Origin: Porticoccaceae bacterium
GTDB lineage: Bacteria > Pseudomonadota > Gammaproteobacteria > Pseudomonadales > Porticoccaceae
Assembly (NCBI GenBank): GCA_029252555.1
Contig: JAQXBF010000028.1
Location: 1 to 56,620 of the forward strand
DNA length: 56,620 bases
Reading direction: 5' to 3'
The notes beneath the pieces were generated by a model. It was not told where the DNA came from. It was given only the letters and a program-made list of their open reading frames with translations, and did no database searches. This document shows, one piece after another, positions 37,066 to 39,615 of the stretch (the stretch's first letter is position 1; each line of letters starts with the position of its first letter). The position numbers and the translations under genes were made by a program.

Positions 37066-39477
37066 TTACTTATCCCAATTAAGGATATCCATCACAACCT
37101 TAGCCTGCTGATTAGCCTGCGCCAACATAGCTGTAGCTGCCTGCTGAATGATCTGTGTTCTTGCTAATTCTGTCGTTTCTTTTGCGTAGTCCGCGTCATG
37201 AATCCTACTCTGTGATGCTTTGACGTTAGTTGACATAGTCGTAAGGTTATCTATAGCGTACTCAAGGCGATTCATCACCGCACCGTAGCTACCTCGCTGA
37301 CTGTCTATTTGTGTCATAGCTCTGTCGATTATAGCCAGCGACGTTGTTGCTGAGGCCGCTGAGGTGATCGCTGAAGGTGATACTGAGTCAGCGTAGTTGT
37401 TAGCATCTGCCTCTAGGATCACAGTGAGTCCTGATACAGAGTTACCATCCGCAAGACCAGTAATACTGATCACGCCAGAGCTCGCTGATGCGCCGCCATA
37501 CAGACCCGTTTGCGCAGCGATCTGTGAGGCCATAGAAGCTAGAAGAGCATCCAAGCCTTCTACCCCAATGATTCCCTGTACCTGTGTACCTCCGGCAACA
37601 TTGATGGTAATGCGGTCGCCTGTGACTAGGTTACGGTTGTTGAAGTCTAATTGGCTGATACCGGCGATATAGACGGTGGTGGTGGGCCAGTCAAAAATTC
37701 GGACGTGTCCGGCATTACTCCCATTGCCATCGTTGTTAGGCGCACCTATAGCAACTGCGCTGCCACTGGCGCTTATGCTAACGGAACTACCGTTGTTATC
37801 GGCTAGTGTCTCGGCGTCTATATCAGCACCGATTTGGACCCAAGAGTTCCCATTCCAGCGGTATAGACGTACATGGCCAGAACTGGAGCCACCGCCTGGC
37901 GCATAAGCATAGGCAGCACCTATCGCTAAAATGTTGCCATCATCGTTTAAGCTCACAGAGTCCCCACTGGCATCCATCATCTTTTCGCCGTCTATGTCTG
38001 ACCCAAGTTGTACCCATGCAGAACCGTTCCATGAGTAGACCCTGACATGACCTGAGCTAGTCCCATTGCCATCATTACCCTGAGCACTGATGGCAACTCT
38101 GCTGCCGTCGGAGTTGATGCTTACCGAGTAACCACTTTGATCCCAGGCTGCTTCCCCATCTATATCAGCGCCACGCTGTTCCCAGGCAGAACCATTCCAA
38201 ATATAGACACGGACCTGTCCGGAATTATTGCCATTTCCATCATTACCTGTTGCACCTATAGCTATGCTGTTTCCATCTGAACTAATGCTTAAAGATTCGC
38301 CACTTCTGTCGCCAGCGGCCTCACCATCTATATCGACGCCACGCTGACTCCATGTAGTACCATTCCAGTCAAAAACTCTCACATGTCCAGCTCGACTACC
38401 TGAGCCGTCATTTTCAGGAGCACCTACTGCAATTGTTTGCCCGTCATCACTAACCGCAACAGCGTCACCAAATGTGTCACCCGCGGCTTCGCTATCTATG
38501 TCAGAGCCCTGTTGCACCCAGGAGGATCCATTCCAGTGATAGACCCTTGCATGACCTGAGAAAGCGCCACTTCCAGCATTGTAATGAGCTCCAATTATCA
38601 AGGTGTTCTTATCTTGACTTAAGCCTACTGAGCCGGGGCCGCCACTGTTATTGTTAGTTGCCTCACCAGGTATATCAGACCCACGCTGAGTCCATGATGA
38701 ACCATCCCAGTCGAAGATTCTTACATGACCTGAGTTTGAGCCACCGTCATCGTTATGATCAGCACCGATCACGACTGTGTTGCCATCTGCGCTGATAAAT
38801 AAACCAGCACCACTCTTATCTTCGGCCGCTTCTCCATCGATATCAGCACCACGCTGAATCCATGCTCCAGTAACATTTAGAGTCTCGCTGGAGACTGGTG
38901 CAGTTGTCTGGGTCAGGGTTGGAGGCGTTGATGCATGAGTTACATATCCCATTTCTGTAGAAGTCCCGCCAAGCCGGTTGATGGAGAAGTTGCCCAGTGA
39001 GAAGTCAATAGTCTGTGATGCATTAGCGCCTACTTGAAGTGATGTAGCAGGGCCAAAATGAGAGCCATCAAGCAGATTTTCACCATTCCACTGGGTGTTG
39101 CTAAAGACGCTTTCTATCTCAGCTTTAAGCGCCTGATACTCTAAATCTAGAGACGATCTATCCTTGCTGGTATTGGTGTCATTGGCAGACTGGACAGACA
39201 GTTCTCGCATCCTCTGCAATATGTCCGTGACGCTTGCAACAGCTCCGTCTGCTGTTTGAACCATTCCAATAGCATCGTTAGCATTCTGGACAGCCTGATC
39301 CAATCCTCTGGCCTGACTGGTCATTCTTGAGGCGATAGCCAGTCCAGCGGCATCATCAGCGGCTGAGTTGATTCTCAGCCCTGTTGAAAGTCGCTGCATA
39401 GATTGCGCCATGGCTCGCTCGTTCTTAGCGAGGCTATTGGCGGCAATGCTTGCCGGTATGTTTGTGCCTATCTTCAA
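37066..39477 (-). CDS. Flagellin with an inserted FG-GAP-type propeller domain
   Basis: This 803-residue protein starts at TTG 39477 with MKIGTNIPASIAANSLAKNE. An in-frame stop lies two codons upstream, so this start is favoured. Residues 1-170 are a standard flagellin D0/D1 region (RLSTGLRINSAADDAAGLAIA) and the last ~110 are the matching C-terminal D1/D0 (SRIHDADYAKETTELARTQI ... ANQQAKVVMDIL). Between them, about residues 204-600, are seven ~56-residue repeats with DIDGEAA, a DG turn, AIGA and SGHVRVYxWNG, then a ~90-residue D2-like part. The repeats predict a seven-bladed propeller on the filament surface. No other flagellar gene is in the window, and the gene lies on a tRNA islet. Confidence 0.9.
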   Translation of the reverse strand: MKIGTNIPASIAANSLAKNERAMAQSMQRLSTGLRINSAADDAAGLAIASRMTSQARGLDQAVQNANDAIGMVQTADGAVASVTDILQRMRELSVQSANDTNTSKDRSSLDLEYQALKAEIESVFSNTQWNGENLLDGSHFGPATSLQVGANASQTIDFSLGNFSINRLGGTSTEMGYVTHASTPPTLTQTTAPVSSETLNVTGAWIQRGADIDGEAAEDKSGAGLFISADGNTVVIGADHNDDGGSNSGHVRIFDWDGSSWTQRGSDIPGEATNNNSGGPGSVGLSQDKNTLIIGAHYNAGSGAFSGHARVYHWNGSSWVQQGSDIDSEAAGDTFGDAVAVSDDGQTIAVGAPENDGSGSRAGHVRVFDWNGTTWSQRGVDIDGEAAGDRSGESLSISSDGNSIAIGATGNDGNGNNSGQVRVYIWNGSAWEQRGADIDGEAAWDQSGYSVSINSDGSRVAISAQGNDGNGTSSGHVRVYSWNGSAWVQLGSDIDGEKMMDASGDSVSLNDDGNILAIGAAYAYAPGGGSSSGHVRLYRWNGNSWVQIGADIDAETLADNNGSSVSISASGSAVAIGAPNNDGNGSNAGHVRIFDWPTTTVYIAGISQLDFNNRNLVTGDRITINVAGGTQVQGIIGVEGLDALLASMASQIAAQTGLYGGASASSGVISITGLADGNSVSGLTVILEADANNYADSVSPSAITSAASATTSLAIIDRAMTQIDSQRGSYGAVMNRLEYAIDNLTTMSTNVKASQSRIHDADYAKETTELARTQIIQQAATAMLAQANQQAKVVMDILNWDK
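37680..38868 (-). repeat. Seven tandem FG-GAP-type coding repeats inside the flagellin
   Basis: Seven units of about 165-175 bp are translated as W.Q.G.DIDGEAA.D.SG..VSIS.DG....AIGA..NDG.G..SGHVRVY.WNG. Units differ at many positions and in length (for example an AYAYAPGGG insertion in unit 6), so they are old, diverged repeats and not recent slippage. Confidence 0.88.
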
Positions 39478-39530: not shown

Positions 39531-39551
39531 CGATCTCGCTACGCGAGATCG
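39531..39551 (-). promoter_or_regulatory. Perfect hairpin in the flagellin 5' leader
   Basis: A 9-bp perfect inverted repeat (CGATCTCGC / GCGAGATCG) with a 3-nt loop lies between the candidate promoter and the flagellin start, about 54 nt before the TTG. It could be a stabilising stem, a post-transcriptional control point or an operator dyad. Confidence 0.55.
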
Positions 39552-39588: not shown

Positions 39589-39615
39589 TCGCCGGCATTA
39601 GCCAAATAAACTTGA
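39589..39615 (-). promoter_or_regulatory. Candidate sigma-28 (FliA) promoter of the flagellin gene
   Basis: On the minus strand TCAAGTTT, an 11-nt spacer and GCCGGCGA match the FliA consensus TAAAGTTT-N11-GCCGATAA: 7 of 8 in the -35, 5 of 8 in the -10 with GCCG intact, and exact spacing. It would give a leader of roughly 100 nt. Confidence 0.6.

Follow-up and report, generated by a model that had tools for sequence, protein, structure and literature searches.

The gene on the minus strand at positions 37066-39477 of the window, the 56,620-nucleotide stretch analysed here from a marine SAR92-clade bacterium (Porticoccaceae), encodes a flagellin whose outer part is predicted to form a ring of seven blades that resembles the animal integrin head. 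On balance we favour reading it as a flagellin paralogue with a closed integrin-alpha-type FG-GAP_2 propeller and a small D2-like domain as outer domains, the heads being most likely multivalent binding modules. The architecture, the paralogues, the clade distribution, a palindrome in the leader and purifying selection in relatives were read from sequence, and the fold comes from prediction. The features are as follows (window coordinates).

37066..39477, minus strand: propeller flagellin gene, 803 aa, with a TTG start at 39477
38968..39477, minus strand: N-terminal D0/D1, residues 1-170, with Flagellin_N
37684..38862, minus strand: predicted seven-bladed FG-GAP_2 beta-propeller, residues 206-598
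37363..37683, minus strand: small D2-like alpha/beta domain (strands and a helix in the model) between the propeller and the C-terminal D1, residues 599-705
37069..37362, minus strand: C-terminal D1/D0, residues 706-803, with Flagellin_C
39531..39551, no strand assigned: leader palindrome CGATCTCGC-N3-GCGAGATCG, 53 nt before the start codon
39589..39615, minus strand: sigma-28-like promoter TCAAGTTT-N11-GCCGGCGA, 13/16 consensus positions

The 803-aa ORF is free of internal stops and bears ordinary flagellin D0/D1 parts at both ends, as a preliminary description made from the DNA alone had stated. Pfam places Flagellin_N at residues 3-139 (4.5e-44) and Flagellin_C at residues 714-799 (1.1e-24), both exceeding their curated cut-offs, and an adhesin without flagellin ends was thus rejected. 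The D0/D1 regions are complete and well conserved. The middle matches FG-GAP_2 (PF14312; 2.9e-25) with five individually significant stretches and a score of 88.6 bits against a curated cut-off of 23. The seven FG-GAP-type repeats of about 56 residues described there were recovered as W-x-Q-x-G-x-D-I signatures starting at residues 206, 262, 320, 376, 432, 488 and 546 (spacing 56-58); no more than one signature occurs in any of 2000 residue shuffles of the protein, which rules out a chance origin of the repeats. Flagellin models score up to 263 bits, compared with 97.8 for TIGR02550 FlgL (cut-off 127.2), and identity as FlgL was rejected because the flagellin models outscore it; among the 25 flagellin/FlgL models shown, none reaches its full-length cut-off, which is expected given the foreign middle. 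Pfam matched no enzyme, peptidase or lectin family on the protein (a DUF3860 match under its cut-off was ignored), and HExxH has zero occurrences in it, so that it does not qualify as a flagellinolysin or enzymatic flagellin. In an alignment the TTG start falls opposite ATG in two homologous 5’ ends of this genome, and five genes of relatives have TTG at that place too. A frameshift or chimera, the former raised at the outset as something that would overturn the reading, was rejected, since an equal architecture recurs in relatives, namely in the cultured SAR92 strain H231 (G019) and in AG-905-B21, which we take from its naming to be a single-cell genome.

The fold was predicted with AlphaFold2, both for the full protein and, along the lines proposed in the preliminary description, for the propeller region. 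The full-length model (62 aligned sequences) has a mean pLDDT of 79, with ten-residue blocks at 181-690 mostly ≥85 (lowest 59, at 521-530) and D0/D1 blocks mostly 50-75, where the alignment is shallow. The propeller alone (residues 186-625) reaches pLDDT 88.3 and pTM 0.87. Foldseek returned both integrin-alpha propellers and flagellar filaments for the full model; for the propeller alone, integrins fill the first 21 rows (TM-score on the query up to 0.67), and after them come mainly G-beta chains and further integrins, G-beta TM-scores on the target reaching 0.72 within the 50 rows listed. In strand order, the first W-strand comes before blade 1 and the final blade has none of its own, which fits ‘velcro’ closure of the ring. 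The repeats, the pTM and the fold matches thus support seven repeated four-stranded blades and the one seven-bladed FG-GAP/integrin-type propeller that had been expected, with closure of the predicted ring judged from pTM, TM-scores and strand order. With the integrin alpha-subunit propeller the head shares the seven-bladed fold, and integrins are its nearest solved structures by Foldseek; it differs in its low identity to them (13-20% in the integrin rows), its PF14312 repeats and its place on a bacterial flagellin. The DxDxDG calcium motif of integrins is absent from the 803-aa protein, the looser Dx[DN]xDG occurring once, at residue 240, and we therefore liken the head to the integrin alpha fold and do not class it as a member. 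Searches for solved relatives by sequence found none, giving either arginase rows alone (E about 0.09) or no rows. With such a propeller on a flagellin, many copies of a binding-type domain probably line the filament.

Propeller folds include that of sialidase, which is six-bladed. Flagellins with functional inserts, mentioned in the preliminary description as known, are well documented: the available text of PMC5595980 gives 61 types of domain for the variable regions of flagellins, vWFA (21) and sialidase (10) being in the top ten, and the principle of inserts is thus not new. FG-GAP is not among the ten commonest flagellin domains of that study, and the word is absent from its main text. 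In the available sections of PMC6248924 ‘propeller’ is used once, for the flagellum itself. A literature search, covering titles and the openings of abstracts with few subscription journals, returned no report of a propeller flagellin, and we regard an integrin-type propeller as a new variant on the documented principle. Domain insertion into flagellins is possible without whole-gene transfer, according to the same available text of PMC5595980. Flagellinolysin, as described there, likewise has a folded domain in the flagellin variable region, which in our case too would be displayed on the filament; theirs is a metallopeptidase active on filaments, whereas ours is a predicted propeller without an enzyme family. 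Giant flagellins of marine gammaproteobacteria, known for thick filaments, also have a very large variable region, but their DE/DX inserts show no similarity to enzyme domains (PMC6248924, available sections), whereas the insert here is recognisable as an FG-GAP_2 propeller. The sheath flagellins of E. coli O157:H7 and Achromobacter similarly combine large outer domains with a conserved D0/D1 core; the authors could not identify convincing structural homologues of those domains (PMC8931119, in the part available), and the head in the window has them.

The window’s genome (2.30 Mb in 40 contigs, 97.5% complete) falls in the genus of SAR92 strain H231. Flagellin_N has no second match on the window’s contig, and none of ten neighbouring ORFs scanned (8 of the 40 listed ORFs of ≥130 aa and two shorter ones) is flagellar, two being without a family; to that extent the earlier statement that no other flagellar gene lies in the window holds. 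As to the flagellar regulon and other flagellins that the preliminary description had proposed to look for, another contig, C18, carries a flagellar cluster that includes FliA, FlhA, FliF, FliI, FliS, FliD, FlgE, FlgK and FlgL (NCBIfam), together with a plain 417-aa flagellin and a 5’-cut 501-aa flagellin. A second propeller flagellin with seven repeats lies at C5:2-2200, truncated by the contig start, and two more 5’ ends of the propeller flagellin type run off contigs C16 and C35. A 105-aa C-terminal remnant on C16 is bordered by the genes found on either side of the intact 1009-aa propeller flagellin in H231. With these paralogues, the window gene is a member of a small family. Several C18 proteins are long, with FlgE of 942 aa (L244:2433-5261), FlgK of 997 aa (L017:7092-10085) and FliD of 695 aa (L017:4060-6147), sizes that exceed the typical ones.

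The leader palindrome occurs on all eight 5’ ends that three genomes have of this propeller flagellin type. Allowing ≤1 mismatch, a scan of 50 genus genomes gave eight sites, in three genomes and each 53-54 nt before a propeller-flagellin start, with no site in the other 47 genomes and none away from such starts. Its arms never vary, and covariation thus cannot separate an operator from an RNA hairpin. An inverted repeat (arms ≥8, loop 3-8) was not found in the 250 bases upstream of L075, L079, L081 and the G042 669-aa gene. The putative promoter at 39589-39615 is called sigma-28-like against the usual consensus; its score is reached in the window by no other site at spacing 11 and by four more at spacing 10 or 12. 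Homologous leaders have a sigma-28-like match (11-13 positions) at the same place in five of eight cases, and in the remaining leaders (H231 1009 aa, H231 792 aa and the 1009-aa gene of Porticoccaceae UBA2002, G013) a match at that place is not among the best three. The plain 417-aa flagellin has a sigma-28-like site with 14/16 positions. A sigma-54 site upstream of the window gene was dropped, its GG-to-GC spacing being one base short by eye against the usual consensus.

Of the 112 genomes of the family, 12 have a match to the propeller at 1e-20, and 11 of these have ORFs that unite flagellin and propeller. Three propeller flagellins are encoded by H231 (1009, 797 and 792 aa), two by UBA2002 and two by G042, one of the latter cut. 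The twelfth matching genome, G044, has an 1856-aa protein (L053:2837-8407) with 21 W-repeats in three sets and without flagellin ends. For two of the 11, G143 and G135, only a form without the first D0 helix was seen. Flagellin-like proteins of 632-637 aa with the propeller and without that helix (L219:1594-3489, L221:47-1957, L218:1622-3532) are perhaps not assembled, or exported differently. The propeller was matched in 7 of 390 genomes of the order sample and 4 of 369 of the class sample; longer stretches from the seven matching genomes outside the family contained no ORF with flagellin ends, the ORF of G579 being 5’-cut by its contig. These genome searches took matches of 1e-20 or better (1e-10 in one search), and several genomes are drafts. 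A search of genome contigs found flagellin together with propeller in 9 of 79 loci; it took the best 80 of 212 relatives, so that it may have passed over flagellins whose heads have diverged. The preliminary description would have taken numerous known flagellins bearing this insert as a refutation; in what was searched, the insert was found in one bacterial family only.

The 1009-aa paralogues (L049:6628-9657, L064:5410-8436) have an extra domain of about 215 aa within blade 2, with no informative match in Pfam (whole protein) or PDB. Another genus of the family (NAT43, MED13, AG-905-B21, SP98) has flagellins of 1604-1608 aa with both flagellin ends present. In these giants (L079:5257-10080; L080, L081, L087; complete frames L252-L255) the propeller is followed by a second repeat array with the motif EF-x-V/I-N-T ... 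GGFVVxW, seven repeats of which were counted by eye in L079, and the same proteins also bear several D2-like repeats.

For the origin of the insert, we constructed a D0/D1 tree of 41 flagellins, 14 of them with a propeller and 27 ordinary ones, all from the window’s genus (26 from other genomes, one from the window’s own). Thirteen of the propeller flagellins group in a single clade with ultrafast bootstrap 91, in which 11 are joined at 100, and the G042 669-aa propeller flagellin pairs with a plain 286-aa flagellin of G042 (100). On the simplest reading the propeller insert was therefore probably gained twice; the G042 669-aa protein and its sister are long branches, and attraction between them is possible. 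Left out of the tree were the partial frames L224:2-1129, L230:1-768 and L232:1-684, the complete L234:2411-3289, the C5 and G042 524-aa pieces and the 632-637-aa forms. The propeller nearest to the window’s in BLAST (62% identity) belongs to a 1259-aa frame from Arenibacter, a bacteroidote, and the nearest flagellin propeller has 53% identity. In a weakly supported propeller tree (FastTree), 9 of 13 flagellin heads, including the window’s, cluster with one other protein (0.73), with the two heads of G042 falling elsewhere, outside this cluster. As the propeller tree is weak and disagrees with BLAST, the nearness to Arenibacter is no proof of recent transfer. Fold matches in BFVD include giant-virus proteins (a Micromonas virus among the sources) and phage proteins, one at 50% identity. 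Homologues from cyanophages, 32% identical across 47% of the query, bear the annotation of virion structural proteins. None of 60 viral loci carries flagellin ends, and a viral origin of the flagellin was rejected.

Heads and shafts have diverged to different degrees. Between the window protein and the 797-aa paralogue of H231, identity is 92% in the N-terminal D0/D1, 54% in the head, 79% in the D2-like domain and 83% in the C-terminal part; by these alignments the heads of paralogues are strongly different and the shafts alike. Between the C5 protein and the H231 797-aa protein, the heads are 88% identical with dN/dS of 0.05 (dS 1.3), and the two 1009-aa proteins give 0.09 across head and extra domain (dS 0.41), while the two 792-aa proteins are too similar for an estimate. 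Judged by these ratios, the heads of near-orthologues are under purifying selection. Synonymous sites are saturated in several distant comparisons, for which no ratio is claimed.

Binding to surfaces or glycans appears the likeliest role of the heads, as this type of propeller recurs in virion proteins and in proteins that look exported by eye, paralogues bear different heads on one kind of shaft, and the head of one paralogue has an additional domain. In this scheme FliA (sigma-28) would transcribe the gene, and the protein would pass unfolded through the flagellar type III channel, fold outside and polymerise through D0/D1 together with plain flagellins. Many propeller heads would then be on show along the filament as multivalent modules that bind glycans, particles or cell surfaces, and the paralogues would offer different heads for different ligands on a common shaft. 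The divergence of paralogue heads could reflect drift, replacement or antigenic change instead of ligand choice, and an orphan gene outside the flagellar cluster may encode a minor subunit or be unexpressed.

The strongest rival, which we nevertheless consider unlikely, is that the propeller, as an outer domain, serves mechanically or hydrodynamically by making the filament thicker or stiffer, without a specific ligand. Outer domains of flagellins elsewhere act mechanically and change filament shape (available parts of PMC8931119 and PMC6248924): two marine gammaproteobacteria owe thick filaments to giant flagellins (PMC6248924), and outer-domain sheaths alter motility (PMC8931119). The FlgE, FlgK and FliD of the window’s genome are likewise long, and flagellin frames of 627-723 aa in other members of the genus have no match to the window propeller, both of which speak for this rival. 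A mechanical role, however, has no need for the same integrin-type propeller to be acquired twice, nor for strong conservation between near-orthologues combined with large differences between paralogues. It is improbable that the heads are variable shields or decoys shifting under flagellum-binding phages or grazers. Such shifting would suit the greater difference of paralogue heads than of shafts, and a window head that has its nearest BLAST relative in a bacteroidote protein and not among the 12 other flagellin heads compared; the head dN/dS of near-orthologues, however, reveals no diversifying selection there, and the window head lies in the weak nine-head cluster, so that head replacement is not established. 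A minor, rarely expressed or decaying gene of no present function is very improbable: the orphan position, the TTG start and the C16 remnant, which stands where H231 and UBA2002 have an intact 1009-aa gene and indicates that propeller flagellin genes do get lost, are outweighed by the intact ORF, purifying selection in relatives, the conserved leader palindrome, a sigma-28-like site, and TTG starts in five intact genes of relatives.

Returning to the binding reading, a more elaborate version can be offered tentatively, and we would not be surprised to see parts of it fail. It holds that these are ‘tool-head’ flagella, whose paralogues have a common shaft, in one lineage their own leader element, and integrin-like propellers that can be exchanged, acquired on two or more occasions from a pool in which Bacteroidota proteins, phages and giant viruses also share; on the 1600-aa giants of the sister genus the propellers would be stacked with the second repeat array, and the filament would be a multivalent adhesive surface. 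If the filament does carry integrin-like heads, motility and attachment would be united in one polymer. It would also be natural proof that a 400-residue propeller passes the flagellar export channel and folds outside, and would be useful to display technology on filaments. The SAR92 clade is abundant in coastal seawater and strain H231 has been grown in the laboratory (PMC10746254, available text). The filament-head reading is directly testable, as H231, with three such genes, has been cultured.

Two minor observations concern individual records. Record L075 (4388 bp) is titled Flavobacteriaceae TMED48, but has a counterpart of equal length, with an ORF of the same size, in G147, a genome of the window’s family, and the title looks wrong. 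An FG-GAP_2-like ORF of 438 aa (L058:4922-6238) lies in a setting that by eye resembles phage structural genes, and cyanophage and Vibrio phage records contain repeats similar to those of this ORF.
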